From a virus: a DNA stretch of 64,000 nucleotides. This document shows, one piece after another, positions 1,566 through 38,813 of the stretch. The notes under the pieces were generated by a model. It saw only the letters and a program-made list of their open reading frames with translations. It did no database searches and was not told the origin of the DNA. The first letter of the stretch is position 1, and each line of letters opens with the position of its first letter. A program made the position numbers and the translations under genes. The DNA lies in IMG/VR virus record IMGVR_UViG_3300027977_000029, positions 1 through 64,000 of that record, one strand, 5' to 3'.

Positions 1566-1785
1566 TATCACAGCCACCGCAAAAACTGAAGACGAAATTG
1601 AAGTTGAAGTTCCGTTGACACCTGCTAAGAAACTCTCGGGTGAACCTTTCAAGGGTCGTAAGCCTTCGGATTGGTGTTTGACACCTCTTAAAGATGAGAC
1701 GATTGAAGCGATCAATAGTGTCACTGGTGAGACCTTTGAAGGTACTATGGAAGCCTTTAATGCGAGACTGAAAGCAAGCAACTAA
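1558..1785 (+). CDS. Hypothetical protein, 75 aa, upstream of portal
   Basis: A small charged protein (MVNITATAKTEDEIEVEVPL...) with no family I recognise. It overlaps the gene before it and shares its last base with the start of the portal gene, so it is translationally coupled into the head operon. Confidence 0.6.
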   Translation: MVNITATAKTEDEIEVEVPLTPAKKLSGEPFKGRKPSDWCLTPLKDETIEAINSVTGETFEGTMEAFNARLKASN

Positions 1786-3341
1786 TGACAGTCGCCAATG
1801 CCGCTGATGTAACCAAAACGGTAGGCGACCCGAATGCGGCATACGAGTCAATGCGACCTTTGTGGTTGACGAGTCGTGCAGCTTGCAGTGGCGGAAGGTT
1901 TGTAAAGGCATTGGATCAAACTATCGATGTCAATAAATTTACAAATCTTCTGTCACCATTCTCGCCTTCTATGACACAACAACAATATGACTTCTATAAG
2001 TCAGAAGCTGAGTGGCCTGGTATTGTCTCAACGTTCTCAAGAACGCTAGTTGATGCGATTCTTCGTAAAGCCCCTCAACTAACCTTACCTGCCAGTGTAC
2101 CTCCGGAAGCTCGTGACTGGATCCTTAACGAGTTCGGTGAAGATGGCACTCCTATGTCTGCCTTCCTGGGTGATGCGATCTGGGAAGAGATTCAGACAGC
2201 CCGCAGTGTTATCTTTGTTGATTATACTTCAGAACTGTCTGAGACCAATATTATTCCTTATCCTGTAATCCAAAAGGCTGAAAATGTCATTAACTGGCGA
2301 CGGACTAAAGACGCTTCCGGTAAAATGGTTGTGTCCCAAATCATCCTTAAGGGTTTAGAAGAGTCTTACGCGGATGAGAATCAATTCCATCCGACTCTTA
2401 GGGAAGTCATCAGGGTCCATGAACTCTTCAACGGCGCTTATCAAGTTCGTAAGTACGTTGCAGAGTCTGACGAGACTTCAGCACCTGTTGTCCAGGGTCA
2501 ACCTGTTCCCAAGAACACGAAGAAAAGCTTTAAACTAGTAGACGTGATCCCTGTGCTCGTCAACAACGAGAGCTTGGACTTTGTCCCCGCTTGGCCTCTT
2601 AATGGTTCCATTGACCTCGCTGAGCCTATATTGTGGCCGCTTATTGAGAAAGAAATTTCTCTGTATAATAAGATGAGTAGGCGCAATCACTTGCTCTATG
2701 GCGCTGCAACTTATACTCCATACGTTTGTTCAGACATGACTGACGAAAAGTTTACCGAGGTTGTTGAAGCGGGTCTTGGTTCTTGGTTGCACCTAGGTCA
2801 AAGCGATAGTATTGGTGTTCTTGCGACTCCTACAGAAGCTCTCCAGGATATGGACAAGGCTATCGCTGCGGGTATCGAGGAAATGGCAAAGCTGGGTGTC
2901 AGAATGTTGACTCCTGAAACAGCTCAATCTGGTGTTGCACTTGAACTTCGTAACGCTTCTCAAACTGCCAGACTAGGCTCGCTTCATACCAAGATCATTA
3001 ATACCATGAAACAGGTGGTCACTTTTATGATCAACTGGCGGTATGATCTTGAGATTAGCGCTAGTGAGGTTGAAGTTACTCTTTCTAATGATTTCAGTAC
3101 TGCGCCTTCCGGTGAAGTCTGGCTCAGACTAGCCACTGAGTGGTATGAAGCAGGCTTGATCCCCAGGTCTGTTTGGCTTGCCCTTCTTAAGCAGCATGAC
3201 TTGCTTCCTGATGACTATGATGACGAAGTAGGCAAGAAAGAATTGACAGAAGATGAGCTTATTATTACTCAGCCTGACGTCGCTGTTTCAGACTACCAAA
3301 AGCAGATTAGGTTGAAACCTGATACTGTTAAAGAGGTGTAA
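1785..3341 (+). CDS. Portal protein (DUF4055 type)
   Basis: At 518 residues this has the usual size of a siphovirus portal. It would form the dodecameric ring at the packaging vertex that passes DNA and anchors the connector. The N-terminal half carries YKSEAEWPGIVSTFSRTLVDAILRK and an EDG...F...W segment, then a region around residues 290-400 (EISLYNKMSRRNHLLYGAATYTPYV; a G-x-G turn; QSGVALELRNASQTARLGSLH) that is typical of DUF4055 portals, including the clip and tunnel helices. It directly precedes the MuF gene, the classic order portal-MuF-scaffold-capsid. Confidence 0.9.
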   Translation: MTVANAADVTKTVGDPNAAYESMRPLWLTSRAACSGGRFVKALDQTIDVNKFTNLLSPFSPSMTQQQYDFYKSEAEWPGIVSTFSRTLVDAILRKAPQLTLPASVPPEARDWILNEFGEDGTPMSAFLGDAIWEEIQTARSVIFVDYTSELSETNIIPYPVIQKAENVINWRRTKDASGKMVVSQIILKGLEESYADENQFHPTLREVIRVHELFNGAYQVRKYVAESDETSAPVVQGQPVPKNTKKSFKLVDVIPVLVNNESLDFVPAWPLNGSIDLAEPILWPLIEKEISLYNKMSRRNHLLYGAATYTPYVCSDMTDEKFTEVVEAGLGSWLHLGQSDSIGVLATPTEALQDMDKAIAAGIEEMAKLGVRMLTPETAQSGVALELRNASQTARLGSLHTKIINTMKQVVTFMINWRYDLEISASEVEVTLSNDFSTAPSGEVWLRLATEWYEAGLIPRSVWLALLKQHDLLPDDYDDEVGKKELTEDELIITQPDVAVSDYQKQIRLKPDTVKEV

Positions 3342-3364: not shown

Positions 3365-6300
3365 GTGGCAACCGTTAGCGCTAACACAGAACTGTATGAC
3401 AAAATTGTCGACAGAGCAGCTATGATTAGACTTTACGAGCGTCGAGTTCAAGGTAAAGTCTCGTTAGTGCTTGATGGTCACACTGTCAAGCTTGATGATC
3501 TTATCAGTGGGTCTGAAACCTCCACTGCTGGTTTAAAGAAACTCAGAGAGGCTATTGATCAAGAACTTCAAAAGACCTATCAAGAGATTTATAATATCTC
3601 TAAGCGGTCTTTATTAGATTTAGTTGTAGATCAAGCCTCCTTCTCTTACCAAGTTATTGAAAACACCATGGGTGGCATCTGGACAACTCAGAGACCTACC
3701 AGACGTGTTGCTGAAGACATTGTTTTAGATAGACCTCTCTATAACGACAAGACACTACTCCAGGGTTGGAATGGTGTAAGTATTGCTGAGCGTAGACGTA
3801 TCGAGACTGTAATCCGGGCTGGTATCGCCAAAGGTTCTACAGTCAAAGAGCTTGCCCTTGCCGTAAGACGCGGTAACGTGCACTCCATCAGCAGGAACCA
3901 AGCTGAGGCTCTTGTTACCACTTCTATTACTAGCGTCCATGCTCAAGCTGACCATGCTGTCTATGAGGCTAACGGTAAAGCCCTCCATGGTTGGCAGTAT
4001 GTTGCAGTCCTGGATAGTAGGACTACACCTATTTGTGCTCATCGGGATGGTACGATCTATCAGTTATCTGAAAAGAAGTACCTACCACCGGCTCACTATA
4101 GATGTCGTTCAACCACTATTCCTGTGTTTAAGTCATGGGAAGACTTAGCTAAACTCGAAGGTGTTGCTGAGGTTCGCAGGACCAATATTGCAAACCTAAC
4201 TGACAAGCAGAAGACTTTCTATGACGGTCTTACACCTCTCAGGGAATCTTATGATGCCTGGTTACGTAGACAACCTACCGCTGTCCAGTTAAAGCATCTA
4301 GGTGATTACAAGAAGCTTGAGATGTTCCAGACAGGTCAGCTTACTGTTGACAAGTTCACTAACGACAAAGGTAATAGCCTTGGTATTAAGGAACTTAGAC
4401 GCCTGACGAGTGACACCACAGTAATTCCTGGAGACACTCGTAGGTTTGCCAATGCTAAAGAACGCCTTGATGCAATGCAACTGGGTGCTGCATCTCCTGA
4501 CGATTTCTTAACTAAGCGTAAGCTGAAAGATACTCTAGTCGATTACTACTTGCTACAAGCTGGTGAACTGGACGGCACCCTGTCCTCTATGAACTACAGA
4601 GGTGGACTTGTCCATACTAAGCTGGCTATGCGCCGTAAGGTACTCTCAAGTCCTCCCACTGAGGATCAACTGAGATTCAATCCTGTTACCGGCAGATATG
4701 AGGACATAAGACTTTACCAACCTAACCCTGCTGTGTATGAGAATCGGATCAGACTCTTAGAGAGCACTCCAGAACTCACACCTGAGGACATAGCGTTTGT
4801 AAAGGATATCTCAAATCGTCTTGAAAGCAAGATGAGTATCAACCAACGAGCTGTAGTTGTAGACAATCTCAGAGTTCTTTTCAGCAGGTATCGTAAAAAC
4901 CCAGAACCCTGGGGTAACTTTAAAGCTGTTGTACAGGCGCAACTTAAGTTTGATATTATGAACGTCTCTGAGGCTGTGGAGACATACATTCGTAAAGACA
5001 CTAATGTTCTTAAGAAGTTGCTTGATGACAACTATATTGACCCTGTTCTGGGCCCTACCCAGCTTGATACACTGCATGACGAATTTATTTCAAACATTGT
5101 GGCTAAGAATCGTTGGGAAGATCGTAAGGCTCCTAAGATTGCGAAAGAACTGAAAGGTCTGTTAAATCTTGAAATACCTCTACTAGTTAGGGAAAGACTT
5201 ACAGATGCAGATCTCCAACAGTTCTACTTAAGGTTTGCCCATAGGCTGGCTCTTGCGGATTCTCCGGATAGGGATCAGTTTGCAGTAGCCTTGGGCCGTG
5301 ATCTCTACAACATGGCTAATCTTAATGGTGCTAAGCGTGATTGGTACACACTTGGTCTCAAGCTTCTGGAGTCTAAGCGCGTATCTAAATTCTATGAGAT
5401 TGAAACCTTTGGCGTTCAAAAACGTAGAATGAAGAGTCGTATGAGCGGTTCCTACTTTGGTCCGTATTATGATACCCTGGCTCATAATATTAGAGTAGTG
5501 GATCCTAGGATTCAAGAATACGCTAGGCTCACTCGTAAGGTTGAGCTCGGTCTCAGAGTCTCAGTCACTTCTGAAAAGAACAGATTGAAATTCAGAACTG
5601 GTTACAAAACTTACTTTATTGATCGTGGCATTCTTGGCCTGGAAGATACTAGGATCCCTATTACTTCCACCAGTTCATTCAGTGACTTCCCGGAAGAGCT
5701 TGTTGATGCAGACCTTGTCAAGGCTCTTAACTGGGCTGGAGCTTCTGAGTATAAAATTGATGAAGACTACTACGACTTCATTCATAAATTGATATACTTC
5801 GAAGATGACAGAGGTAAAGCTAAGTACTATAATGAGTTAAACCACTATCGTAATCACCTTCTTGGTCGCGGTGACGCTTATGAGCGTCTCAAGGCTATGG
5901 AATGGCTTAGAGCCTCAGGCAAAAGCTTCAGTAACCACCCGTTTGTGGATCATCGTGTTCGTATCTACGAGCGAGGGCTAATTGGACCTCAAGCAGGTGA
6001 GACATTTAGACCTTTCTTGAATACTAAGGAGCTAAGAAACTTCAGTCCTGAAGCTTTTAATAACCTCCAGGATCAGATCGGCGGGTTTCTCGGTGGTCTG
6101 GACGAGTACTTTGAAGGCCGATATAATGGACTCTCCTTCACAGGTAGGCAGAAGATTGCTGAAAAGTGGCGTCCTGAGATGATTCGTATTGGCAATCTGA
6201 TGCTTCGTAATAAGCCTGGAGACATTCGGGCGTTCCTTGAATCTGAGATGGTTCAACGAATCGATGGTGAAGAGCTGGGTAAGTTTGCTAGGCTTGCCAT

Positions 6301-8020
6301 TGAGTCTGCTAAGCTTGATAACTACTTAAGGGCTATGGATCCACGTAAGGGTGTTGACGTCTATTCTAAGTCTAACTTAGCTACTCTTGTCAAGTACAAG
6401 ACTGGCCTAGCACTGGAACAAGATGCCTCGTCATCAGGTGCTCAGATCATCGCTTTAACTACTAGGAATAAACAACTAGCTGAGCTCAGTAACGTTGTAG
6501 CTACTACACAGAAACGTCGTCTGTACGATGAGATTGCAGCTACAACCTATAACGATCCTCGCTTCCAGCTACTTAATCGTAAACTTGGGCTTAACGAGCG
6601 AGACCTCCGTAAAGCTGCTAAAGCTCAGAACATGGTTACGTTCTACGGAGCTGGCGAGCGTACAGGTATCTTTAACGTCGAAGGTAAGCTTGCCAAAGTT
6701 CTTAACAAAGACGCTGATACACTGGTTGTTACAGCTAAAGATCGAGATGCGGTTCTTGATCAAATAAGCGCGAGGGTGGCTAGAGTAGAGCGTTACGATA
6801 AGCTTTTGGCGGAAGATCTTAAACAGCTCAGAGCAAATGTTCGGGATGTGTTCAACAAAGGGTTAGATCCTGGCGATGATATACTTGAGCAGTTGTATTT
6901 CTTAGATCCTAAAACTCGTGAATTAGTTGAGAAGCTGAGCTCTCAGTATGAACGTATTATCACTCCTAATGACTTCAAAACCGTAGCCAACATTATGAGT
7001 GAACATCTTGCTGAGCAAGTTCCAATCCTCAAGGAGTTTACTAAGTTCTTTGGCAGACTAGCTGAGGCGTACTTGGCAAGCGCAAAACCCTCAAAGAGTG
7101 ATTTCGATTGGTCTTCTATTATTAAAAGTAAGATATTTGGTAATAAAAAGAAAGGCTACACACTTCCAGACGAAGTCAGCAAACTGCTAGGTTTAAAGCC
7201 AGGAGAGCCTGTCAAAGAGGCTGTTCTTAAACGTATCAGTCTGTATGACCCTAACAGCAATCTTGCTGACATGATCAATGGTGTCTCAACACCTGAGACA
7301 AGACGTACTGGTGGTAAATACTTTAAGATTGAATTGTTCGGTCTTAAGACTTTGTTTGAAATAGAGGTACTTAAGGCTAACAAGCTCCCTAAGTCTTGGA
7401 CGAATGTTCCTTGGGTAAACTTTGATGGCAAGATCATTGAGCAGAACTTTACTCAGTCGTTTGAAGAAAGATTAACTTACAGAGATAAAGATGGTAACTG
7501 GACAACTAATATTCTACAAGTTCCTCAAAAGACTGAGGCTTCTTGGTGGGATCAAGCACTCAATAAGAGCGGCAAGATTAATGACATTGCAGACGCTACA
7601 AAAGCTAGAACTGCCTTTGCTGTTAATGGTAACCATTCTAATGATGCTACATTAGTTAAGCAATTCCATCTCTGGGGTGAAGCTACTGGAGTTCCAACTT
7701 CGACTATCCATGACGCCTTCTTTACTAATGCAGCTGATATGCTTCAAGCCAGAACTGCCCTCCGTAAAATCTACGCAAGAGCTCTGAGAGGTGAATCTGT
7801 AAAGAAGACCCTGGACGAGATGCGCGCGAGAGGTTTACCTAAAGAAGTCTATGATAAGTTTCTTGAAGAAGCTATTGAAAAGGGCTTGATCCCTGTCGTA
7901 GGAAAATCTAGAATAGGTGGTAGGCTAATTGATGAGTCTGATATACTAACTACAGACGACATCTTGCAAGAAGTTCCATCCGATTTCGTAAGTGATTACG
8001 GTTGGTATGGTGTAGGCTAG
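3365..8020 (+). CDS. Giant MuF head protein fused to an N4-like single-subunit (virion) RNA polymerase
   Basis: The start is GTG, with TAGGAG seven bases before it. Residues about 150-255 are a MuF/head-morphogenesis domain (ALVTTSITSVHAQ...DSRTTPICAHRDG...LPPAHYRCRST). The remaining 1300 residues carry the polymerase signature in order: D862-H-R-V-R866 followed by IYERGLIGPQAGETFRPFL (T/DxxGR region), D1020-ASSSG-AQ (motif A), R1082-KAA-K1086-AQNMVTF-Y1094-G (motif B; same R+4+8 spacing as T7 R627/K631/Y639), then NGNHSNDA and IH-D1450-AF (motif C). MuF proteins sit inside the head, so the polymerase would be packaged and injected as in N4. The N4 protein is not known to be fused to MuF. The domain reading is strong; activity and injection are inferred. 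Confidence 0.85.
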   Translation: MATVSANTELYDKIVDRAAMIRLYERRVQGKVSLVLDGHTVKLDDLISGSETSTAGLKKLREAIDQELQKTYQEIYNISKRSLLDLVVDQASFSYQVIENTMGGIWTTQRPTRRVAEDIVLDRPLYNDKTLLQGWNGVSIAERRRIETVIRAGIAKGSTVKELALAVRRGNVHSISRNQAEALVTTSITSVHAQADHAVYEANGKALHGWQYVAVLDSRTTPICAHRDGTIYQLSEKKYLPPAHYRCRSTTIPVFKSWEDLAKLEGVAEVRRTNIANLTDKQKTFYDGLTPLRESYDAWLRRQPTAVQLKHLGDYKKLEMFQTGQLTVDKFTNDKGNSLGIKELRRLTSDTTVIPGDTRRFANAKERLDAMQLGAASPDDFLTKRKLKDTLVDYYLLQAGELDGTLSSMNYRGGLVHTKLAMRRKVLSSPPTEDQLRFNPVTGRYEDIRLYQPNPAVYENRIRLLESTPELTPEDIAFVKDISNRLESKMSINQRAVVVDNLRVLFSRYRKNPEPWGNFKAVVQAQLKFDIMNVSEAVETYIRKDTNVLKKLLDDNYIDPVLGPTQLDTLHDEFISNIVAKNRWEDRKAPKIAKELKGLLNLEIPLLVRERLTDADLQQFYLRFAHRLALADSPDRDQFAVALGRDLYNMANLNGAKRDWYTLGLKLLESKRVSKFYEIETFGVQKRRMKSRMSGSYFGPYYDTLAHNIRVVDPRIQEYARLTRKVELGLRVSVTSEKNRLKFRTGYKTYFIDRGILGLEDTRIPITSTSSFSDFPEELVDADLVKALNWAGASEYKIDEDYYDFIHKLIYFEDDRGKAKYYNELNHYRNHLLGRGDAYERLKAMEWLRASGKSFSNHPFVDHRVRIYERGLIGPQAGETFRPFLNTKELRNFSPEAFNNLQDQIGGFLGGLDEYFEGRYNGLSFTGRQKIAEKWRPEMIRIGNLMLRNKPGDIRAFLESEMVQRIDGEELGKFARLAIESAKLDNYLRAMDPRKGVDVYSKSNLATLVKYKTGLALEQDASSSGAQIIALTTRNKQLAELSNVVATTQKRRLYDEIAATTYNDPRFQLLNRKLGLNERDLRKAAKAQNMVTFYGAGERTGIFNVEGKLAKVLNKDADTLVVTAKDRDAVLDQISARVARVERYDKLLAEDLKQLRANVRDVFNKGLDPGDDILEQLYFLDPKTRELVEKLSSQYERIITPNDFKTVANIMSEHLAEQVPILKEFTKFFGRLAEAYLASAKPSKSDFDWSSIIKSKIFGNKKKGYTLPDEVSKLLGLKPGEPVKEAVLKRISLYDPNSNLADMINGVSTPETRRTGGKYFKIELFGLKTLFEIEVLKANKLPKSWTNVPWVNFDGKIIEQNFTQSFEERLTYRDKDGNWTTNILQVPQKTEASWWDQALNKSGKINDIADATKARTAFAVNGNHSNDATLVKQFHLWGEATGVPTSTIHDAFFTNAADMLQARTALRKIYARALRGESVKKTLDEMRARGLPKEVYDKFLEEAIEKGLIPVVGKSRIGGRLIDESDILTTDDILQEVPSDFVSDYGWYGVG

Positions 8021-8023
8021 CTG

Positions 8024-8041
8024 ACCCCGTTAATTTAACCC
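8024..8041 (+). promoter_or_regulatory. AACCCG element, copy 1 (candidate phage RNA polymerase promoter)
   Basis: The sequence ACCCCGTTAATTTAACCC matches the consensus AACCCGTTAANTTAACCC shared by five intergenic sites. It lies right after the MuF gene and 84 bases before the scaffold gene. The core GTTAANTTAAC is palindromic, so a dimer-binding operator is the main alternative. Confidence 0.6.
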
Positions 8042-8124: not shown

Positions 8125-8781
8125 ATGGCGGACGAAAATACCGATCCCAATACCACAGCAGACCCGGTTGTTGATACTCCAGCAGCTGATTCCGGTGATC
8201 TTGATAAGAAGATCCAGGAAGCTGTAGATGCCCAACTCGCTTCAATTAAGTCTAAGCTCGATAGTGCTTATGCTCAGCGTGACGAAGCTCTTGTTAAACT
8301 TAAGACAAAAGAGCAGGCTGAACATGAAGCTGAACTTAAGAGATTAGAAGACGAAGGAAAGCATAAAGAACGCTTCGAGTTGCTGATGGCCGAAGCTAAC
8401 GCTGCCAACAAGGCATTGGAAGCTGAAAACCTCAAACTCAAGCGTGATACTCAAGTAACTGCTGCCATGCAGACTGTTTCTTTACGGAACGACGCTGCAC
8501 AAGAAATGGCGGCTGCTACGATCACTAAGAATCTTGTTCAGGATTCTAATGGCAATTGGGTGTCCAAAGATGGTAAGTCGATCAAAGATTATGTCAAGAC
8601 ATTCTTTGACGATGAGTCTAACGCTTTCTTGTTGAAGCCTAAGGTTTCTAGAGGTTCGGGTACCAGTTCGCTCCAGCCCCAAGTTGATGAGCCGTCCACT
8701 AGGCCGCTCTTTGAGAGATCCCAAGCCGATGTGCTTAAGGATGTCCAAGAGGGTAGGCTTAAAAGGACCAAACCTACCTAG
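8125..8781 (+). CDS. Capsid scaffold protein
   Basis: This 218-residue protein has an acidic, low-complexity N-terminus (MADENTDPNTTADP), a long charged coiled coil at about residues 25-110 (SKLDSAYAQRDEALVKLKTKEQ...) and a basic tail (GRLKRTKPT), the normal build of a siphovirus scaffold. It lies immediately before the major capsid gene. Its role would be to organise capsid subunits during procapsid assembly. It is preceded by the candidate promoter at 8024 and by two leader hairpins, consistent with high late expression. Confidence 0.85.
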   Translation: MADENTDPNTTADPVVDTPAADSGDLDKKIQEAVDAQLASIKSKLDSAYAQRDEALVKLKTKEQAEHEAELKRLEDEGKHKERFELLMAEANAANKALEAENLKLKRDTQVTAAMQTVSLRNDAAQEMAAATITKNLVQDSNGNWVSKDGKSIKDYVKTFFDDESNAFLLKPKVSRGSGTSSLQPQVDEPSTRPLFERSQADVLKDVQEGRLKRTKPT

Positions 8782-8790
8782 GAAACGTAG

Positions 8791-9972
8791 ATGACTGTTG
8801 TCACAAATTTGGCGGGTGCTTCAACCGAAGTCCTGCAGGAAACCCTCGGCGTTTATTCCGACGAGGCGTACACCAATGCTCGTAAGCTCTCGGGCACTGG
8901 TATTGTCGGCTCTAACCCGGACATTGACCGTAATACTGAAACCTTTATTGGTCAAATGCGCTGGCACAAGCCTCTGAACCCCACGATCAACGTGGCTTCG
9001 TTGACTGACTCGACCAACGGTACCAAGACTTCTTACAGCTCAGACTACCTGAGCTACATTAAGACTGTCCGTACCCACGGTGCCGAGAAGGTCAACATGC
9101 AAAAGGTCGTCACTCAAGTTGACGGCCTCGCGAAGATCGGTAGAGACTTTGGTGAAACTCGCGCCCAAGACGAACATAATGCTATTATGGCCGTCCTCAA
9201 GGGTGTCGCTATCGCTGAAGCTCTGAACGGTGCTGCTACCGGTTCTGGAGCTACAGGTCTGGGTGGTCAAACCTTCGAGAATGACCCGACAGATAAGAAG
9301 TTCGGTTTCTATGTGGACCTCGGTTCAGACGCCGCTGTTGTTGATGCTACGGCGTCAGTTCAGGGCGCTGCTCGTGCTGAAGGCTTCATGGAAGCTATGG
9401 GTAAGGCGTGGAAGGACTATGAGCCTGAGTACGCTTACCTGATCACCTCTCCGGCTGTCATGGCTTCGCTGCGTTCAGCCAATCTGGTTGACCAAGATCG
9501 AGTCACTGATGGTAACGTCAACTTCAACACTATCTTCCAAGGTAAGCTGCGTCTGATCCAGACTCGTGCGGGCCAGTCGATGTCTTCAGCGGAATTGACC
9601 AAGATCAATACCGGTGCTGGCGTTGATATTGTTGGTACTAAGACTTCCTTCATCGTGCTTCCGGGTGCGATGGCTATGGAAGCCCTGGACGTTCCGGATG
9701 ATGTTGAAATCACCCGTGACGGTAACGCTTACAAGGGCGGTGGTACTACTGCTATCTGGTATCGTTGGGGTTATATCCTGCAACCTGCGGGCTATGACTG
9801 GAACGGTCTCGAAACAGAGTTCCCGTCGGATGCTTCTTACAAGTTCTCCGTTGAATCTGGTACTCCGGCTGCGCTCACTGGTGTCACGACCATTGCTAAC
9901 GCTCGTGGTACCTGGGATCGTAAGGCTTCTTCGGCTCTCAGCCTGGGCATCCTCCCGATCTTCCACAGCTAA
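8791..9972 (+). CDS. Major capsid protein
   Basis: The 393-residue product follows the scaffold and precedes the connectors, the standard place for the capsid subunit. The N-terminus (TNLAGASTEVLQETLGVYSDEAYTNARKL), the middle segment FIGQMRWHKPLNP and the late sequence GGGTTAIWYRWGYILQPAGYDW fit an HK97-fold capsid protein family seen with DUF4055 portals. Codon choice shifts toward C-ending codons compared with the flanking genes, as expected for the most abundant protein in a GC-rich host. No obvious terminator follows before 9986. Confidence 0.9.
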   Translation: MTVVTNLAGASTEVLQETLGVYSDEAYTNARKLSGTGIVGSNPDIDRNTETFIGQMRWHKPLNPTINVASLTDSTNGTKTSYSSDYLSYIKTVRTHGAEKVNMQKVVTQVDGLAKIGRDFGETRAQDEHNAIMAVLKGVAIAEALNGAATGSGATGLGGQTFENDPTDKKFGFYVDLGSDAAVVDATASVQGAARAEGFMEAMGKAWKDYEPEYAYLITSPAVMASLRSANLVDQDRVTDGNVNFNTIFQGKLRLIQTRAGQSMSSAELTKINTGAGVDIVGTKTSFIVLPGAMAMEALDVPDDVEITRDGNAYKGGGTTAIWYRWGYILQPAGYDWNGLETEFPSDASYKFSVESGTPAALTGVTTIANARGTWDRKASSALSLGILPIFHS

Positions 9973-13101: not shown

Positions 13102-16100
13102 ATGACTGGCGTAATTATTGACGTCAAGACCAAAGCAGACTCTGCCAATGCTGAGCTTAACAGACTTAATCTGAACTTGATGAATATCGTCAAGTCTGGA
13201 AATTTGTCTAATAAAGCTCTAGGGCAGATCTCTGCCGCTAGGTTCAAGGGAGTCACAAGTGAGACTCAAGCTGCTACCAAAGCTGTTAAGGCGTTTGGTA
13301 CAGAAAGTAGAAACAGTGTAAACAGCGCGAACTCTAGTGCTGCTACACTGGCCAGGACGATGAATTCCGTAAAGGCGGCTGCTGCTGGCGCTGTAGTTGC
13401 TTTTGCTGCCTTTAAAAGCACTCAGGGTTTACTAGCTGCCAGTGATGGATTGACTAATATCCAAAACAGATTAAAGCTTGTAAGCGGCTCAATGGATGAC
13501 TTAGCAAGACGTCAGAAAGTTTTATTTAAAGTAGCCCAGTCTACTCAAGCTTCTTACGCAGCAACAGCTAATACTTTTGTAGATTTCTCTAAATCTTTGT
13601 CACGGCTAGGTGCAAGTGAAGCCGATGTTATTAAAGTCGTTAAAACTATCAATCAGGCAGGCGCTCTGTCAGGCAGCTCAATAGAGTCACTTAACGCAGC
13701 GATGATACAGCTTCAACAAGGTATTTCTGCTGGTGCGCTTCGTGGTGAAGAATTTAACTCGGTTGCTGAACAAAATAAATACCTTATGCTGGAGTTAGCC
13801 AAAGCGACTGGTAAAACAGTTGGTGAATTACGACAGCTTGCCTTTCAAGGACAGTTGACTAGTGATGTTTTGTTTAAAACTATTTTGAAAATCTCTGGGT
13901 CTACGGATAAGGCTTTTAACTCAACTGTAATAACTTTTTCAAAAGGTACATTTATCTTAAAGCAAAGTATCTCTTATCTGGTTGGTGAGCTTGCCCAATT
14001 CACTAAGATATCTGAAATTGCAGGCAACTCCGTAGTCAAGATGTCTGCCAGGCTAGATAATTTTTCTCAAAATGTTATTGGCAATTTACGAACTGCTGTA
14101 GAGTACGCTAGCACTTACCTTAGTAAGCTTGCTACAGCAGAGCCGATTAGTCTTAAAACAAAGTTAAGGGTATTCTTCGATAGCAAGGATATTAAAAATA
14201 GATACCAGAATGAGATAAAAGAAATACTATTTGCATACTCAGAATTGTTTGGAATTGAAACTAAAATAAAAGCTTCAGGATTAGGTACTTGGGCTCAAAG
14301 CTTCGTCAGCCTTTATGACAACTTTATAGGTAAAACTAAAGATACCCAAAACGCAATCTCAGGATTTCTTCAAGAAATCTTCAGCAGCTCTACAGACGGG
14401 GTGTCTTCAGTTAAGATTACTGTGGAAAAGATACTTAACACAGTAATTGGTATAGTTGGTATCTTTGAGGCTGCGGTTCGACGTGTCTCGTCTTTCTTAC
14501 CTAAAATCGTTGCACCGGCTGAAATCTTCCTAGTTAATGTTGCAACATCGATCTACACGATCGTTACTGGGATACGAACAGTTTTGAGAGATGCCTTAAG
14601 ACCTACTGTCAGAGATATTCAAGGTATTTTTGAAGGTCTCACTATGTACCTTGTAAGTGACACTAGGATCGAGCGAGCTTTTGTTAAATTGTTTCAGACA
14701 GAGTCGCTAGAGACTTTCACATCACAGTTATTTAAAGTTCGTCAAGCGATTGACTCTGTACGCCTAGGCAGTTTAGAGACTTTATTGTTTAAAGTGGGTT
14801 ACACATTTAGGCGGGCCACTGTTCCTATAGAGTCCTTCTTAATTTCTATCAATTTACTTGACAACAGCATTCTTAGGTTAAATGCGGGCGCAATACAGCG
14901 TATTGGGATGAGTGTTGACACAATCGTTAGCACAATTAAAATGCTGTACACCGACGTTATCTGGATTGGACTTAAACCTATTTTGGCAAACATAGCTGTC
15001 TCTATTGTAAACTTTATGGCTGTTGTTACTGATATTATCAACGATACTTTTGACTATAACACTGGTAAATGGATCGGTTCACAGCTAGCAAAAGGTTTTA
15101 AAGCTAGCGCAATGTTATTGAAGAACATCCTTATTGGGATATTTAAACCTGACGATATTATGGGTAAATCAGTCTTTGATCGATTTGTAGACCTAGTCGC
15201 TAAGACCTTGATAGGAGCTTTTAAGAATGTGATTAATTTTACCAGAGGTCTTGTTGCTGGATTCTTTTCGGAAATGAATTTTTCAGTAGACTTGTTTAAG
15301 TTCTTGAACCCCACTGCTTCAGCTTCTGCAGGTTTTAAGAAGCTGGTAGATAACATTTTAGGAGATATCACAGGGCGTCTAGCAACAATCTCAAAGAAAC
15401 TGTCAGGTATTTTTGATTTCTCGAAAATTTTAGCGCCTCTAGTGTTCCTTAAAGATTTGTTTTCCACGATATTTAAGTATATCTCAGAGAGTATTGATAA
15501 AGTGTTTGCGGAGCTTTGGGCGAGAGCTAGTACATTTTCATTAAAGTATACCTTCAGTTTAAACACCACACTCTTAGAAGACGGCATTATGATTGCTATT
15601 AGGCTGTTTGAGTCTATCTATTATTTTGCTCGTAACTCAATCAAGAAGACAGAGAAGCTTGTCGAATCCTTTACAAATAACGTAAAAGACATGTTCTTCG
15701 ATGTGTACGACAAAGTGGTAGGGCACTCTTACTGGCCGGATATGATTTCCGGAATTAATATGCACACTCGTAGGCTTAATACGAGTGAGGGAATTGTTAA
15801 AAGATTTATTGAAAAGTTGAAGAGTGCTTTTAAAGAGCTTGGAGAACTGGCTGGTCCAGTTTTCGATAATTTTGGTAGCAGCTTCGGTAACTTAAAACTT
15901 GCTATTGGTTCTATAGACTATGGTCAAGTTTTGGTGAACTTGCGTGACAGAATTGCGGGCGCACTTGTTGCAGGCTTGCTTATCGGTTTTGGAGGAATGA
16001 GAGGTAAGCTTTTAGGTTTTGGTTATCTTTTCTCATTCATTACCGACGGTGTTGATAAGGCAATTCTCTCTACACTGCCTACTGTGTCCAAAGTGTTAGG

Positions 16101-19100
16101 TCAAATTTCCGCTGATTTCACTAAGTACTTTGTAGATAGCTTTGCTAGAGTTGTGGATGCAGTAATTGTTGTAATTCCTAAGACCTTAGATGCTCTAATT
16201 GAAGGGATCTTTGGGAAGGTTACTCTATTCTTTGCGCATCTTAACCCAATTCTTAGTAGTAAGTTGCTAGCGACTGTAACAGTCATTGGTCTGGCCTTAG
16301 CCAGCATGAGTCGAAATTGGCCTGATACCATCTCTAGCATGATCTTTGGAGAAAAGAACGCTAGAGGTAAAGTAGTCAAAGAAGGTGTCCTTGGGATATT
16401 CAAGGGGTTTACTCCTGCTCCTGGCGAAGGTCTTCTTACTAAACTCTTTGGTGATCGAAAAGAAGCTGCTGCGTTAGGTGTGTTGTTTGCTTCCACTATG
16501 GCTCTAGAAAGTGTTTCAGTATTTGAAGCATTATTTACTGCAGCGCCACTTATGCTGTACGCCCTGCTAGGTCCTGATGCTGGTGCCAGACTCTTGAAAG
16601 ACGTTGTGACTAAGTATTTGCCTGCTTTTGCTGGCCAAATGACTTTAGTCATCGCAGGCTTGATGGAAACGGTTGGTTTCACTAGCGGCGCTCAATTCTT
16701 AAAAGGTCTAGTGTCGGGTACTGGTAAAGGTGGCGGAACTATCCGAAAGCTTATTGAAAGCTCTTTTTCAGGATTTAGTGGCTCAAATGTAGTCTCTGGC
16801 ATCACTGCTTACTTTAGTGCTTTGAATACAGGCCTATCCAACTTTAGAAAGAACTCTAAAAACTATGCCTCCGGTGCAATGAGTCTCAGTGAAGCTATTA
16901 GAGACGCTTCTAAGTCAGACTTTGCAGCAAACCTAGCGAGAAACGCAGCAAGTGCTTATCAAGGCAATGCTGCAGCTATGGCTAAGCCTTTGATGGATCT
17001 CAGACTAAATTTTAAGAAGATGGGTAATGCAATAGCTATCGATTTTAAGAAGGCTTTAAGTTCGATAAAGACTGCAAAGCTTGGAAGTTCCACGTTCGGC
17101 AGTGTGTTTTCTGAAACGCTCGTTAATGCCCGTGAGTTTTCAAAGCACATGTCTGAGCTATTTTTGAGAGGTGGTATTATTGAAGCTGCTAAAGGTGCGG
17201 CTGAGAAGATTGCTTTCTGGTTCACATCTAGCTTCACTAAGATTTTAGAAGTGGCCGGCCCTTTCATAACCAAGTTTAAATGGCTGATCGCTGGTATTGC
17301 AGCAGCTCTGGTAGCGGCTATAGCATTGATGCCAAAAGATGCATTTGCTGCATCTCTTACAGATCCTGTGGCAGGTGCTGGTGAGGGATTTGCTAAGGCG
17401 GCTCTAGGGATTACTGCCTTTGCTGCAGCTTTGCTCGCTGTAGACCGAGTGATGAAGGGTCTTAACCTCTTCAAGACTCTTAAGGCTAAGGCCACCCAAG
17501 AAAACTTAGAGACACTCGCGAAACCATTCTTAGACCAACTGGAGACTGCTTCCGCTGCCAGGCTGAAAGACTTTAACTCAAAAGTTAAAGGCCGCGGTAG
17601 TGCTGGTGCTAGAGCTACATTTGAGGCGCTAGAGTCTTCCGCTAGACAAGCTGCCTATCAAGCTGAAATTCAAAGATTAGCTGCAGCGGGTCTCGGTAAA
17701 GAGGGTACTACAAAGGCTAGTCTAAAAGGTATTGCTGCTGAATTTGAAAAGATCGGGGCTAGCATTACGAAGTCTGTGAAAGGTACAGTCTTTAGTAATG
17801 TTTGGTGGTCTACAGTCGGCTCCAGACTTTCAGGCTTGTTTGATAATATCAGTCTTAAGATGAATGGCAAACAAGGGGCTGGTAAGGTTGCAGCTTCTAC
17901 CGGGATAGGTGCCTTCTTTGGTGAATTGCTCGGCTCAATGGTTGGTGGAAAACTCTTTAAAGGCTTGTTTAAGAAAGCTCCGACAGGTGCTGCTTCTGGA
18001 CTGGCGGGTAAGGCTACTCGGTGGTCACCTGCGATGTCTAAGTATCTGGTGGACGGTCCTTCAAAGGCTGGTGCTAAACTTTTTACAAATCTGAATGGAC
18101 CTTTGGTTAAGCTTGCCGCAAAAGGTGGTAGAGTCGGTCTTGTTGTTGGAGGTCTCGCTGCAGGTCTTGCGACACTTGGTGGAGTCTTCACGCTACTTGC
18201 GGGTAAGGGCGAAACTTTTAAAGAGAAGCTTGGTCAGATTTTTGATACTATTAAAGGCTACTTAGGGCTTGCACCTACTAGTCAAGGCGGTCGGGAGGCT
18301 GCTCTTGAGAAGCTGTTAGCCCCTGGGAGATCAAATACTCAAGCTTATAGCTTCGATAGTACTCTTGAGTCCATGAACCTTAAAGATCTTTCAGCTTACG
18401 CTATGGAAGATCTTACAAGTCTTGCTCAGACCTATTCAGACATTAACAGACAGGCCTTAAAGGAGAGAACGCTCAATGGTCAAATTTCAGGCGAGACTAG
18501 CAAGCAACTAGACATGGCTGCTAAGGCTTTCAATGACGCTGCCATACGTAATGGTGCTAAAGCCTCAGGTGGCATAGGAACCAACAACTATCAAGACTAC
18601 CTAAACTCCCAACTTGATCCTTTAATGACTACGTTTAGTTTTATTTCTCAGAGTCTTGAGAGTATGGACAAGTTAAACCTTATTAAATTTGTTCAAGGTA
18701 TTTTTGAAAAGAAGACCAAAGAACTCACTGGTGCTGCGGTTGCACTTGCAGGCGGTGTGGTAGTAGGGATAAAAAGCACTATTAAAGATGTAGTCTCTAA
18801 GTTTAAAGAGGGTCTTACAAAAGTTAGCGATGCTGCTAAAAGAGGTTTTATTCTTGCTGGCTTGCGAGCTGGGCCCACAAATTTAGATAAAGGTGTGAGT
18901 AGTAAAGTAAGCAGCCTTATAAAAGAGTTTGGCAAAGATTCTACACTCAAGCTTGATGAAGCTACTCAAAAAGACCTTACTTCAAAGAAACAAGATTATG
19001 AGACTAAAGGTTCCGCACGAGCTGCTTTTGTAAATCGTTACGGCATTAATAACGCTATAACAAAAGGTTTTAATGACGCAATAAGCGGAGCAACTGGTGG

Positions 19101-22100
19101 TAGAATATCTCCCTTCCAAAAGGATTTGTTAGCGTATCAGACAGAGCTTGCAAAGCTTACTAGAGAAGCTGATACGGCTGCTAAGGCCTACGACAAAACT
19201 TTAGATGTAATTTACGGTAAACTCTATAGAGTGAAACTCAGCGAAACGTTATTTGAAAAAGTTAAAAAGCAAGTTTCAGAAATTAATGCTTCTCTTGAGC
19301 TGGGCTTAGATGAGACTGGTAAAGGCGTATCTTCTGCAATTCTTGCGAAGATGCAAACGCTTGCCACTCTGAATACTGGAGCAGAAAAGGCTTACCTAGC
19401 GTCTGCTTCAGAAGCGGAACGTGATTTTTATTCGGGACTCTCTGTAGTTGCTAAGAGACGTGCTGAAGCCCTGAAGGCATTTTCGGAAAAATCTAACACA
19501 ATTACTGGTCAAGGCGAGCTTCTTGGTGCTAGCTCAGGTGGAGCCTATGGTGTGAGCGACGCTCTCACATTAGACCGTTTCAAGCAAGTTGGAATTAAGG
19601 AGAGTGGTCAAACAATCCTTGAATACACAGCTATTGGAAAGCAATACAAAGAAGTTTTAGAGGATATCGCTAAGTACCAGGCTGACTTAGATAACCCTCA
19701 ATTTGGCGGTAACCACCAGGCTGCATTAAAAGGTTTAGTTCAAAAGTATAGAGAGCTTAATCAAGTTATGAGAGGTTCTACACCTTCAATTAAAGGTGTC
19801 TCTGAGGCTCTTGCAGCTGCTGGTTTTGAAGGTGCTAATATTGACCTTATAGCTGGGTTAGATGAGGGTAGAATTAAAAGTCTACAAAGTGGAATTGCTG
19901 CGGTAGCTCAAGAAGCAGAACTATTCGAGCGTGCCAGTAAGAACGCAGGCCTTGACATTAAAGCCCAGATAGACTTTGTCAGACAGCTTAAAGCTGAGAT
20001 GGCAGGTCTTCGTCAAGGCTACGCTGAGGCTAAAAACTTTAGACGCTTTTTAATAATGTCTGACCCGAAACTTAGCAAGGTCGACAAAGCGGCCCAACTG
20101 GGTTCAGAAGGTCTGTTAGCGCCACAAGTAGACTTTGGTAAGTTTGTCGGACTTGGTGAAAAATCTAGGCAGCGAGCCCTCGACTATAGTGCTAATTACA
20201 ATGCTGCTACTGAGGCTATTGCAAATTTTAAACCGGGTGATAACGAAGATAGTCTAAAGAAAGCTGTAGAAGCGCAGCGTGTTAACGGCAAAGCACTCGA
20301 AAAGATGTTTGCTGAGCCTTCTTCTAGTAGTGGTTCTAGCGATCCTTTCAAATTCTCTGAGATGCTTTCAATCCTTCAAGAGACAGGCTTTGCTATTGAT
20401 GCTCTGGGCTTTAGTAAGTTAGGCGCGACCGCAAGAAAAGAGCTTGCAAGCATTGCCACTGAGATGAGCATTATCGATGATAGAATCGAGAAAGCTACTC
20501 CGGGCGCTGATCTTATGGAATCTCTCGAAAAGAGAGCTGCTCTACTCAAGAAAGCTCTTGACAAAGTCTTTGACAGCTTTAAAACTTCAGGTGCAATGCT
20601 GAAGAGTGGCTTGGATGAAATGGGAATCTCTGATGCTTCAGCAATGAACTTAGAAGTGTCGAGTCTTTCTGATTTGTTCGAACTCTACAAGAAGTCTAAG
20701 AAGGCTAAGTTTGAGTTTAACACTGCTGGCAGCTACGAGACCCAACTGGCAGCTCTAAGAGAGATGGTTAAGAGTGAGCGGGCTGTAGCTAAAGCAGCTA
20801 TGCTCGTCAATGATTCCTTCCAGGATCGTCTCAGCCTTGTTAATGAGATGTTTAACACAGACTTTGCCCTGGAAGACTTCGCCACTGTGTTTGCTGATAC
20901 CAGGGAAGAGTGGTATAAGCTTGCTGTATTCCTTAAGACTGAGCTTGACAGTATTGAAGCTATCGGTAAGAGCCAAACAGGTTACACTGTTGAACAGCTC
21001 AGCAATATGCAAAGAATGGTGGCTCAAGCCGCTTCTCTTGAAGGTATTATGGCGAAAGCCGGTACTGCTCTCAAGACTTCTTTGAATCTCTCAACAGATG
21101 AGATGTTTGAGACTATCAAAAGTAACTTTGCCGAACTAGAGCTCAGTGATAACGATATGTTCCGTATCCCGGCCTCTCAACGTCGTCAGATGGTTGAAGA
21201 TGCCACTAGGATGGGTGCACTTGTTGAACTTAGCAAACTTCAAGTAAGTTCAGGAATGGCAAAAATCTTAGACGACTTTGCTAAAGCTAATGATCGTTCT
21301 TCTTCTGCTATTAAAGCTGCCTTTGATAAGATGCGTATTGAGGCTTCTAAGCTTACGGGTGAAACAGCTGAGAAGTTCAAGAATCTCTTAGATCCTGCTG
21401 GTCAGAGAACTCCTGAGCTCAATGCAGCTGAGGGTACTGAGAGAAACACAGCAGACATAGTCAAGATCCTTAGCGGTATGAAGCCTGGTGATCTTGCTTC
21501 AGGTGTTGGATCTGGCATTGGCAGAGGCACTTCAGTTCTTAAAAGATTTATCAAGGCTGATACTTCAGTAGAGCCCCTCACAGTAACTGCCGCGAAATCT
21601 CTAGACACTCCTAACAGCCCTAGTTTGATGTCAGTCGATGACGCCACTCAGCAGTTCCTCAGAAAGCAGTCAGACCTTAAAGAACTATACAAGCTGTTTA
21701 ACAGAAGTTCTTTCGATTCGGCCACTAGACCTGGGGTTGGCTTAGACGACACTACAGCAGGACTGGCTACAGAAGCTCAACTTCAGAACTATATAGCTGT
21801 GAGAGAAAAGTTCTTAGCACTCACCGAGCAGCTTGAGCTTCTCAGAATTGGTGGCTTTAACAACGATGCTTTGGCTAAACAAGTTGATGATTTCAGGTAT
21901 GCTTTAGAGCGGCTTCCTGATGTTATTACGAAGAACATCAACGCAGCCAGAGAAGCTGGTAAGTCACTTGCTGATGGGATGAATAGCACTTTCAAGGATA
22001 CTCTAAAGGGAGTTTTCAAAGGTGAGAAAGGTCCTGGAGAAATCCTCCCGGCACTCCTCAACGAGTTTACCAGCAAGATGGTGGACACCTTTGTTGACAA

Positions 22101-22929
22101 CTTGACAGAACAATTTTTAGGTGAAGGTTCTGGACTTTATGCCCTATTTGAACAGATAGGCTCTGGCGTTGCTAAAGGCTCTCAGACAATTGGTGGTGGT
22201 ATTGCTAAGCGTACTGATGGTCCTGGCTTTGGTATAGCCGACATGCTCTCCAAGTTCATGTCAGGTGGATCACCCTCCGGTGGGCACGCCGGTGGGATTA
22301 AGCCTAGCCAGAATCTTTTAAGCAACGCGCTTAACACTAACTTTGCCGCTCCTGCTGAAGATCTTGCAAACATTACCAGCTCTGCTATGCCTGCGCTTAG
22401 CTCACACATTGGCGAGTCTTTCCCAAAACTTACTTCTTCAGTGACAGACTTAAGTAAGAACCTAGGAGGCGCTGCCGGTACAGCTGCTGGCGGTGCAGGA
22501 GGTCTTGGTGTCGGTATGTGGGGAGCCCTTGGTGGCATCTTCGGCACACTCATTGCCGGTATGTTTGCTGGAGGCGGTAAGATCGTCGGCCCTGGAACCG
22601 GTACTTCTGATTCAATCCTTGCAGGTGTTTCTAATGGTGAGTTTATTGTTAATGCGGCTTCAACTAAGAAGTACGGCAGAGTTCTAGAAGCTATTAACTC
22701 TAATTCCTTAAAGGCTTATGCTGAAGGTGGCTATGTTGGAAACCTTATGATGGGTTCCACACCGCTAAGTGAGAAAGCTGTCACTCAGGCTTCTAGAGAT
22801 AGGGCTACAGTAGTGAACCTTCAGATAACTGGGGACATCTCCAGGCAGACCAGGAGTGAAGTCTTCAAAATGCTTCCCGCAATTGCGAATGGCGTTAATG
22901 GCCATAACAGAGAGCAAGGTGTGAAATAA
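13102..22929 (+). CDS. Tape measure protein (3275 aa)
   Basis: The N-terminal region (about residues 90-270) is a clear tape-measure domain: AFKSTQGLLAASDGLTNIQNRLKL, then QQGISAGALRGEEFNSVAEQ and GKTVGELRQLAFQG. The middle holds long helices and several hydrophobic stretches. The C-terminus has the usual GPGTGTSDSILAGVSNGEF and YAEGGYVG motifs. It sets tail length and is thought to pass through the membrane during DNA entry. By the rule of about 0.15 nm per residue, a protein of this size would measure a tail near 490 nm if fully extended, unusually long. It lies after the chaperones and before distal tail genes. Confidence 0.95.
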   Translation: MTGVIIDVKTKADSANAELNRLNLNLMNIVKSGNLSNKALGQISAARFKGVTSETQAATKAVKAFGTESRNSVNSANSSAATLARTMNSVKAAAAGAVVAFAAFKSTQGLLAASDGLTNIQNRLKLVSGSMDDLARRQKVLFKVAQSTQASYAATANTFVDFSKSLSRLGASEADVIKVVKTINQAGALSGSSIESLNAAMIQLQQGISAGALRGEEFNSVAEQNKYLMLELAKATGKTVGELRQLAFQGQLTSDVLFKTILKISGSTDKAFNSTVITFSKGTFILKQSISYLVGELAQFTKISEIAGNSVVKMSARLDNFSQNVIGNLRTAVEYASTYLSKLATAEPISLKTKLRVFFDSKDIKNRYQNEIKEILFAYSELFGIETKIKASGLGTWAQSFVSLYDNFIGKTKDTQNAISGFLQEIFSSSTDGVSSVKITVEKILNTVIGIVGIFEAAVRRVSSFLPKIVAPAEIFLVNVATSIYTIVTGIRTVLRDALRPTVRDIQGIFEGLTMYLVSDTRIERAFVKLFQTESLETFTSQLFKVRQAIDSVRLGSLETLLFKVGYTFRRATVPIESFLISINLLDNSILRLNAGAIQRIGMSVDTIVSTIKMLYTDVIWIGLKPILANIAVSIVNFMAVVTDIINDTFDYNTGKWIGSQLAKGFKASAMLLKNILIGIFKPDDIMGKSVFDRFVDLVAKTLIGAFKNVINFTRGLVAGFFSEMNFSVDLFKFLNPTASASAGFKKLVDNILGDITGRLATISKKLSGIFDFSKILAPLVFLKDLFSTIFKYISESIDKVFAELWARASTFSLKYTFSLNTTLLEDGIMIAIRLFESIYYFARNSIKKTEKLVESFTNNVKDMFFDVYDKVVGHSYWPDMISGINMHTRRLNTSEGIVKRFIEKLKSAFKELGELAGPVFDNFGSSFGNLKLAIGSIDYGQVLVNLRDRIAGALVAGLLIGFGGMRGKLLGFGYLFSFITDGVDKAILSTLPTVSKVLGQISADFTKYFVDSFARVVDAVIVVIPKTLDALIEGIFGKVTLFFAHLNPILSSKLLATVTVIGLALASMSRNWPDTISSMIFGEKNARGKVVKEGVLGIFKGFTPAPGEGLLTKLFGDRKEAAALGVLFASTMALESVSVFEALFTAAPLMLYALLGPDAGARLLKDVVTKYLPAFAGQMTLVIAGLMETVGFTSGAQFLKGLVSGTGKGGGTIRKLIESSFSGFSGSNVVSGITAYFSALNTGLSNFRKNSKNYASGAMSLSEAIRDASKSDFAANLARNAASAYQGNAAAMAKPLMDLRLNFKKMGNAIAIDFKKALSSIKTAKLGSSTFGSVFSETLVNAREFSKHMSELFLRGGIIEAAKGAAEKIAFWFTSSFTKILEVAGPFITKFKWLIAGIAAALVAAIALMPKDAFAASLTDPVAGAGEGFAKAALGITAFAAALLAVDRVMKGLNLFKTLKAKATQENLETLAKPFLDQLETASAARLKDFNSKVKGRGSAGARATFEALESSARQAAYQAEIQRLAAAGLGKEGTTKASLKGIAAEFEKIGASITKSVKGTVFSNVWWSTVGSRLSGLFDNISLKMNGKQGAGKVAASTGIGAFFGELLGSMVGGKLFKGLFKKAPTGAASGLAGKATRWSPAMSKYLVDGPSKAGAKLFTNLNGPLVKLAAKGGRVGLVVGGLAAGLATLGGVFTLLAGKGETFKEKLGQIFDTIKGYLGLAPTSQGGREAALEKLLAPGRSNTQAYSFDSTLESMNLKDLSAYAMEDLTSLAQTYSDINRQALKERTLNGQISGETSKQLDMAAKAFNDAAIRNGAKASGGIGTNNYQDYLNSQLDPLMTTFSFISQSLESMDKLNLIKFVQGIFEKKTKELTGAAVALAGGVVVGIKSTIKDVVSKFKEGLTKVSDAAKRGFILAGLRAGPTNLDKGVSSKVSSLIKEFGKDSTLKLDEATQKDLTSKKQDYETKGSARAAFVNRYGINNAITKGFNDAISGATGGRISPFQKDLLAYQTELAKLTREADTAAKAYDKTLDVIYGKLYRVKLSETLFEKVKKQVSEINASLELGLDETGKGVSSAILAKMQTLATLNTGAEKAYLASASEAERDFYSGLSVVAKRRAEALKAFSEKSNTITGQGELLGASSGGAYGVSDALTLDRFKQVGIKESGQTILEYTAIGKQYKEVLEDIAKYQADLDNPQFGGNHQAALKGLVQKYRELNQVMRGSTPSIKGVSEALAAAGFEGANIDLIAGLDEGRIKSLQSGIAAVAQEAELFERASKNAGLDIKAQIDFVRQLKAEMAGLRQGYAEAKNFRRFLIMSDPKLSKVDKAAQLGSEGLLAPQVDFGKFVGLGEKSRQRALDYSANYNAATEAIANFKPGDNEDSLKKAVEAQRVNGKALEKMFAEPSSSSGSSDPFKFSEMLSILQETGFAIDALGFSKLGATARKELASIATEMSIIDDRIEKATPGADLMESLEKRAALLKKALDKVFDSFKTSGAMLKSGLDEMGISDASAMNLEVSSLSDLFELYKKSKKAKFEFNTAGSYETQLAALREMVKSERAVAKAAMLVNDSFQDRLSLVNEMFNTDFALEDFATVFADTREEWYKLAVFLKTELDSIEAIGKSQTGYTVEQLSNMQRMVAQAASLEGIMAKAGTALKTSLNLSTDEMFETIKSNFAELELSDNDMFRIPASQRRQMVEDATRMGALVELSKLQVSSGMAKILDDFAKANDRSSSAIKAAFDKMRIEASKLTGETAEKFKNLLDPAGQRTPELNAAEGTERNTADIVKILSGMKPGDLASGVGSGIGRGTSVLKRFIKADTSVEPLTVTAAKSLDTPNSPSLMSVDDATQQFLRKQSDLKELYKLFNRSSFDSATRPGVGLDDTTAGLATEAQLQNYIAVREKFLALTEQLELLRIGGFNNDALAKQVDDFRYALERLPDVITKNINAAREAGKSLADGMNSTFKDTLKGVFKGEKGPGEILPALLNEFTSKMVDTFVDNLTEQFLGEGSGLYALFEQIGSGVAKGSQTIGGGIAKRTDGPGFGIADMLSKFMSGGSPSGGHAGGIKPSQNLLSNALNTNFAAPAEDLANITSSAMPALSSHIGESFPKLTSSVTDLSKNLGGAAGTAAGGAGGLGVGMWGALGGIFGTLIAGMFAGGGKIVGPGTGTSDSILAGVSNGEFIVNAASTKKYGRVLEAINSNSLKAYAEGGYVGNLMMGSTPLSEKAVTQASRDRATVVNLQITGDISRQTRSEVFKMLPAIANGVNGHNREQGVK

Positions 22930-32261: not shown

Positions 32262-32280
32262 CAACCCGTTAAATTAGCCC
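32262..32280 (+). promoter_or_regulatory. AACCCG element, copy 3
   Basis: CAACCCGTTAAATTAGCCC matches the family consensus with one change in the right arm. It stands 58 bases before the holin gene. A small hairpin TAGTAA-CCCA-TTACTA (32312-32327) lies in the leader. Confidence 0.6.
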
Positions 32281-38678: not shown

Positions 38679-38813
38679 ATGATAGTACTTGCAGGAATAC
38701 TCGTGATGGGAGCCTTGGTGCTCTGCTATAGACTTCTGAACGGTATTCTTGCAAGCGTGTTTGTGAGCCTGGTAATCTCTATCGGGCTAGGTTTTATTCT
38801 GAGAGATAGATAA
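38679..38813 (+). CDS. Small membrane protein, 44 aa, leader gene of the RNA polymerase
   Basis: MIVLAGILVMGALVLCYRLL and a second stretch (ASVFVSLVISIGLGFIL) are hydrophobic. The ATG follows AAGAAAAG. Its stop overlaps the polymerase ATG (TAATG), so it is translated just before the polymerase and may tune its synthesis. Confidence 0.5.
   Translation: MIVLAGILVMGALVLCYRLLNGILASVFVSLVISIGLGFILRDR

Follow-up and report, generated by a model that had tools for sequence, protein, structure and literature searches.

The window analyzed here, that is, the whole stretch of 64,000 nucleotides (positions 1 to 64,000 of IMG/VR record IMGVR_UViG_3300027977_000029), is part of a viral contig of 71.7 kb. 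The virion genes follow the order terminase, portal, MuF-RNAP, scaffold, major head protein, head–tail adaptor, tail genes, and tape measure; the genes, protein regions, and P17 copies given below with window coordinates lie on the plus strand. The portal protein gene (1785..3341; phrog_145, E-value = 5.8e-52) is located directly upstream of the MuF-RNAP fusion gene (3365..8020), which starts with GTG and is a single uninterrupted frame encoding 1551 aa. The genes of the head scaffolding protein (8125..8781; phrog_206, E-value = 3.6e-6), the major head protein (8791..9972; phrog_247, E-value = 2.3e-17), and the tail tape measure protein (13102..22929; 3275 aa) were found downstream. A profile search with the 3275-aa tape measure protein gave tape-measure matches only, and the presence of this protein identifies the phage as a siphovirus. 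Repeats of ~260 bp were observed at 26900-28600 of the window, within the gene of a 2635-aa tail protein.

The N-terminal part of the fusion protein is a head module (residues 1-350; 3365..4414) consisting of a long helical hairpin (residues 6-102) and a MuF domain, the core of which (PF04233) occupies residues 145-252 (3797..4120). The match to PF04233 (E-value = 4.7e-15, residues 145-252) scored 56.7 bits against a curated Pfam cut-off of 29.6, and that to TIGR01641 of SPP1 gp7 (E-value = 1.8e-18, residues 146-255) scored 66.9 bits against a cut-off of 39.65, whereas the head morphogenesis family phrog_241 covered residues 5-364 (E-value = 6e-66). The protein belongs to the MuF proteins both by profile scores above the cut-off and by the position of its gene between the portal and the scaffold/major capsid genes. 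Residues C224, PP241-242, H244, and C247-R-S of the MuF domain were invariant. A fold search with the MuF half against the PDB revealed no match. It should be noted that the residues up to 353 are homologous to residues 1-342 of a head protein of Pelagibacter phage Kolga (L169:31494-33395), in which the same MuF module is followed by a different C-terminal region with weak metallopeptidase matches (Peptidase_Mx1, E-value = 9e-5, below the cut-off). Since Kolga pairs the module with another C-terminal domain, the MuF module behaves like a carrier whose cargo can be exchanged. Kolga also carries a free polymerase gene related to that of the window. In the AlphaFold (AF2) model of residues 1-620, a low-confidence stretch at residues 351-357 suggests that a flexible hinge links the head module to the polymerase.

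The polymerase module comprises residues 358-1551 (4436..8017), as delimited with the AF2 model and Foldseek. It matched Pfam RNA_pol PF00940 (E-value = 3.5e-10; 39.7 bits, cut-off 22) and, in addition, two phage RNA polymerase families, among them phrog_414 (E-value = 1e-16). The original prediction that one frame unites a MuF domain with the motif set of a single-subunit RNA polymerase was thus borne out by the Pfam, TIGRFAM, and PHROG profiles, and the motif positions it gave were exact: D862-H-R-V-R866 (5948..5962) corresponds to T7 D421-WRG-R425, motif A D1020-ASSSG (6422..6439) to T7 D537-GSCSG, motif B R1082/K1086/Y1094 (6608..6646) to T7 R627/K631/Y639, and motif C H1449-D1450 (7709..7714) to T7 H811-D812; in addition, H1424 in VNGNHSND (7634..7636) corresponds to T7 H784. 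The active-site correspondence was judged by alignment to T7 columns. When fused, free, T7-like, and N4 RNAPII enzymes were aligned without constraints, residues R866, D1020, R1082, K1086, Y1094, H1424, and D1450 shared columns with T7 R425, D537, R627, K631, Y639, H784, and D812, respectively, and a profile alignment to T7-like enzymes (hhalign) gave the same pairing, with D862..R866 on T7 D421..R425. Residues D862, R864, R866, D1020, G1025, K1083, K1086, Y1094, H1424, H1449, and D1450 were invariant in the 44 aligned relatives, and position 1082 was occupied by R in 38, by Q in three, and by A in three of them. The AF2 model of residues 356-1551, built from the 44 relatives, had a mean pLDDT of 83.5 and a pTM of 0.79. 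Its best Foldseek matches in the PDB were the T7 and mitochondrial RNA polymerases (E-value = 7e-18, probability 1.00), and the structural match to single-subunit polymerases on which the original prediction depended was therefore found. The TM-scores were moderate (target-normalized, 0.43-0.57) and the rmsd was large, as is to be expected when multi-domain proteins contain insertions. The sequence and the predicted structure thus show a T7-type enzyme with all catalytic residues, which is apparently active.

The family to which this polymerase had been assigned, the N4-type virion RNA polymerases, was not upheld, as the profiles, motif A, and the fold ranking all argue against it. In hhalign comparisons, the probability was 98.1% for T7-like polymerases (E-value = 8e-14) and 93.3% for N4 RNAPII, the non-virion enzyme, whereas the profile of five vRNAPs, represented for N4 by the mini-vRNAP region 998-2103, gave only 0.3%, that is, no match in a comparison of the kind that had been proposed as a check. 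Motif A of the fusion, DASSSGAQ, is of the RNAP2/T7-like kind, whereas N4 vRNAP has DGVTNG. A true N4-type vRNAP that acquired a MuF domain is accordingly a very improbable origin, although it would share the same broad enzyme class and N4-type vRNAPs do occur in the viral list of Foldseek (E-value = 9e-12 and weaker, compared with 1e-20 for free phage polymerases). The giant size, metallopeptidase C-terminus, and Schitoviridae podovirus context of N4 vRNAPs were likewise absent here, the protein having 1551 aa and a MuF N-terminus and being encoded by a siphovirus; the accompanying description of the N4 polymerase as a stand-alone giant protein holds loosely, as N4 vRNAP is itself multi-domain. 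In the phylogenetic tree, the MuF-RNAPs formed one clade (support 100/100) on a long branch of 3.84 changes per column, located outside a clade (96/89) that unites the T7-like enzymes with the phages' own free polymerases; the exact placement of the MuF-RNAP clade is unsure owing to long-branch effects flagged by the tree program. An origin of the fused polymerase by recent duplication of the free one is not supported by this topology.

More than 80 viral loci share the conserved fusion, as do three named phages, namely, EBPR siphovirus 1, DSS3_VP1, and DSS3_PM1, the last two belonging to Naomviridae. The carriers form a large and for the most part uncultured group of long-tailed phages. Only four of 50,697 phage records (EBPR siphovirus 1, DSS3_PM1, and two records of DSS3_VP1) covered at least 80% of the fusion. 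The homologues in the named phages were 30-58% identical and are annotated as 'head morphogenesis', 'minor head protein-like', or 'head protein', the polymerase half being absent from these annotations. In IMG/VR, at least 522 stretches encoding relatives were found among the 599 candidates listed, several of which may share one contig; the best 80 loci were retained. Among 84,980 bacterial and archaeal genomes, matches were found only in two contigs of one MAG, and this near-absence from cellular genomes fits a lytic life style. The identity across dozens of independent contigs with the same fusion was 30-70%, and three contigs from other samples were 100% identical to the window. In both halves of the gene, differences at third codon positions were about twice as frequent as at first positions and 3-4 times as frequent as at second positions; purifying selection acts on both halves. 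This bias, together with the recurrence at 30-70% identity, excludes a chance fusion. Nothing was found in favor of a joining of two separate genes by misassembly, which is refuted by the identical junction in the named phages and in dozens of independent contigs, including the three identical ones from other samples. Thus, the fusion of a MuF/SPP1-gp7 head module to a full single-subunit RNA polymerase is confirmed as real.

In several relatives, the gene is interrupted. In EBPR siphovirus 1, it is split at motif B by an HNH-bearing insert, and stop-containing inserts were observed at conserved polymerase motifs in three loci (L021:23189-23965, L016:6080-6493, and L067:14236-14969), of which those in L021 and L067 resemble mobile introns because they contain HNH-like reading frames. 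In-frame insertions were present instead in the fusion genes of L094 and L018. A group I intron identity of the inserts in L021, L016, and L018 was considered and dropped, as no Rfam match was obtained at gathering thresholds.

These data bear on the idea that the polymerase part makes no RNA in infection and serves as a DNA-binding or structural component of the head, the fold having been kept without the function. The long tree branch (3.84 changes per column) and the replacement of R1082 in a few relatives would agree with such an idea; however, none of the residues D1020, K1086, Y1094, H1424, D1450, and R866 varies among the 44 relatives, the identity of which goes down to 32-37%, and where inserts, intron-like or other, occur at polymerase motifs of some relatives, the remaining frame is kept. 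The loss of activity is therefore regarded as quite improbable.

A second, free single-subunit RNA polymerase (38813..41044; 743 aa; phrog_414, E-value = 1.7e-117), T7-like in the tree, is encoded in a block in which it is followed by SSB, DNA polymerase, primase/helicase, RNR, and ligase genes. A separate single-subunit polymerase was found in all 14 of the 14 large fusion-bearing records, and none was seen in the partial EBPR record. In some relatives, namely, L116 and L117 (genomes G009 and G002) and L118/L119 (G004), the free polymerase gene was either longer, with frames of 926-994 aa, or divided at about profile position 591, pointing to an intein or intron.

A 17-bp motif, (A/C)CCCGTTAAATTAACCC, designated P17, was always intergenic and in gene direction. 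Its copies were located between the MuF-RNAP and scaffold genes (8025..8041; CCCCGTTAATTTAACCC), where the presumed early block with the free polymerase begins (32264..32280), before the SSB/replication block (41990..42006), before the block of ORF 55593 (55570..55586), and, in gene direction at record position 65261, before the terminase block. With two mismatches allowed, five matches were found in the window, compared with 0.31 expected. The eight related genomes that were compared also contained P17, at as many as five corresponding places, with copies diverged or missing in some relatives, most of all in G002. In 1.38 Mb of loci, 71 matches lay on the coding strand versus 4 on the other strand, and in 53 of the best 80 loci, a copy followed the fusion gene at a distance of at most 450 nt. 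At least 120 viral stretches contained exact copies, and of the 75 newly fetched ones, 70 encode relatives of the window phage. Judging from its sequence and placement, P17 looks like a promoter of a phage single-subunit polymerase and is a candidate for either of the two enzymes, as it marks early and late modules alike. The copies before the early and terminase blocks, at 32264 and at record position 65261, as well as those at the matching sites in relatives, had an additional element ~10 nt downstream that is CTCCCC-rich and often TATATTA-like; this element was mostly absent from other P17 copies, and the copies that have it possibly form a second promoter class.

Two further elements with pairing stems were observed. 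TGT-loop hairpins are located at 8085-8097 (GAAGC[TGT]GCTTC) and 8101-8113 (TGAGT[TGT]ACTCA), in the leader that separates MuF-RNAP from the scaffold gene; their stems vary and still pair. At least one perfect copy was found in this leader in all nine of nine genomes, and two or more in most, and DSS3_VP1 has a similar TGT-type hairpin. As they lie immediately ahead of the scaffold ribosome-binding site, their position speaks against promoters with a 3-nt loop and makes a role in the mRNA leader likelier, possibly as an element of mRNA stability or translation. The second element, RNA-like in character, is a 27-nt H-type pseudoknot motif (S1 of 4 bp, CT, S2 of 5 bp, and a six-nt A-rich loop) at window positions 33432, 34055, 38514, 38546, 38603, and 60505, which was also present in pieces of G001, G004, G005, and G006 (L132-L135, L136-L140, L145-L148, and L162-L165). 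Most copies follow a stop codon at a short distance; three of the copies precede the free RNAP gene, and one precedes tRNA-Leu. Covariation was seen in both stems (pairing in 97.6% of cells versus 76% in shuffles; 31 compensatory cells versus 10.5), and a comparison of the motif with Rfam gave no match above chance. The three copies before the free RNAP gene had suggested an N4-like vRNAP hairpin promoter; this was rejected in view of the H-type covariation, the position after stop codons, and the lack of scan matches in G003, G007, and G008.

The order portal, MuF-RNAP, scaffold, and major head protein is that of SPP1, in which the portal brings the MuF protein gp7 into the procapsid and gp7 supports the start of infection, whereas only ~25% of the virions that lack gp7 are infectious (PMC6316719, PMC5576092). 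One to two copies of gp7 are present per capsid (PMC5576092), and for toxins located on the C-terminus of MuF proteins, delivery upon infection has been proposed (PMC6316719, PMC5576092). The recruitment of SPP1 gp7 into the procapsid by the portal supports the logic of the original prediction, according to which the MuF domain would solve the delivery of the polymerase by attachment to the capsid, with packaging and injection themselves staying conjectural; the precedent covers presence in the virion, whereas ejection into the cell is what we infer for MuF-RNAP. A polymerase expressed along with the capsid genes has no way to act on early genes unless the particle brings it into the next host, and MuF-RNAP is therefore most likely a virion RNA polymerase. 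The presence of two polymerases in 14 of 14 large records suggests the same division between a virion and a non-virion enzyme as in N4 and P23-45 (PMC4496689, PMC10770324).

Consequently, the gene probably encodes an RNA polymerase that is made late, docked by MuF on the portal, packaged, and delivered so as to start transcription in the next host. According to this scheme, the fusion protein would be synthesized late in infection, MuF would dock it on the portal, and a few copies would enter the procapsid and be retained in the mature particle. When the next cell is infected, the protein would pass through the portal and tail with the DNA, at least partly unfolded, and the polymerase would refold in the cell and transcribe the first genes, including the block encoding the free polymerase, which may then drive the modules marked by P17. 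N4 (PMC4496689) and P23-45 (PMC10770324) operate in this manner, with other polymerase families and another carrier. Alternatively, the fused polymerase could work late in the same infection, on the capsid and tail modules or coupled to packaging at the portal, with virion entry as a by-product at most. Its gene does lie within the late block with P17 directly behind it, and the occurrence of P17 on several modules alike does not separate the polymerases by promoter class. However, the free T7-like polymerase present in every large record suffices for late transcription, MuF would direct a late enzyme to the capsids and thus away from the DNA being transcribed, and a low copy number is expected if the protein resembles SPP1 gp7; a late function is accordingly considered unlikely, and carriage in the virion is the preferred reading.

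More broadly, we lean towards the view that these phages are a widespread, apparently lytic siphovirus group with an unrecognized kind of virion RNA polymerase, namely, a deep-branching enzyme of the T7 superfamily carried as MuF cargo at the portal, and with a cascade of two polymerases sharing a 17-bp promoter, so that the phage would be largely independent of the host RNA polymerase. A MuF head protein is present in 57% of 931 sampled siphoviruses (PMC5576092). As a polymerase gives a clean read-out, namely, rifampicin-resistant early RNA, the hypothesis of cargo delivery by MuF proteins becomes testable by a simple enzyme assay, and delivery could be tested where the sequenced carriers DSS3_VP1 and DSS3_PM1 are cultured. 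The P17 motif and the polymerases are also candidate new transcription tools.

Virion RNA polymerases are known from N4-like, crAss-like, and phiKZ-like jumbo phages and from P23-45. If the above reading is true, MuF-RNAP would be a further independent solution, in which a T7-type enzyme is delivered by a small head protein; no report of a MuF–RNA polymerase fusion was found in the open-access literature. The described cargo of MuF proteins consists of toxins, ARTs, RNases, RelA/SpoT, and similar effectors (PMC5576092, PMC5512222). The MuF effector proteins (SPP1 gp7; MuF toxins, PMC5576092; polyvalent proteins, PMC5512222) have the same N-terminal module, encoded beside the portal gene, and the effector-bearing ones carry an enzymatic domain at the C-terminus, as does the fusion in the window. 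The T7-type RNAPs of Autographiviridae and N4 RNAPII are nearest by profile and fold and have identical catalytic residues; they are synthesized in the infected cell, with no head protein attached, whereas the MuF-RNAPs occupy a long branch of their own with full support. N4 vRNAP (gp50, Schitoviridae) shares the single-subunit superfamily, the virion or presumed virion role, and a further phage polymerase in the genome; it differs in belonging to another branch, in its size of ~3500 aa, podovirus origin, and metallopeptidase-containing C-terminus, in the lack of MuF, and in its hairpin promoters. In the Thermus siphovirus P23-45, gp96 is likewise a virion RNAP fused to a structural protein, and a second, non-virion RNAP and conserved promoter motifs are also present (PMC10770324). 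An RNAP joined to a virion-protein family and a second phage RNAP are found in the window phage as well, where they are known from the genes; a two-barrel RNAP on a tape measure protein was absent from it. The RNAPs of P23-45 are two-barrel (cellular-type) enzymes, the virion one being attached to the tape measure, whereas in the window phage, a T7-type enzyme is attached to MuF and the free RNAP is T7-like too. The closest functional precedent for MuF-RNAP is the tape-measure-fused vRNAP of P23-45, an enzyme of the unrelated two-barrel class.
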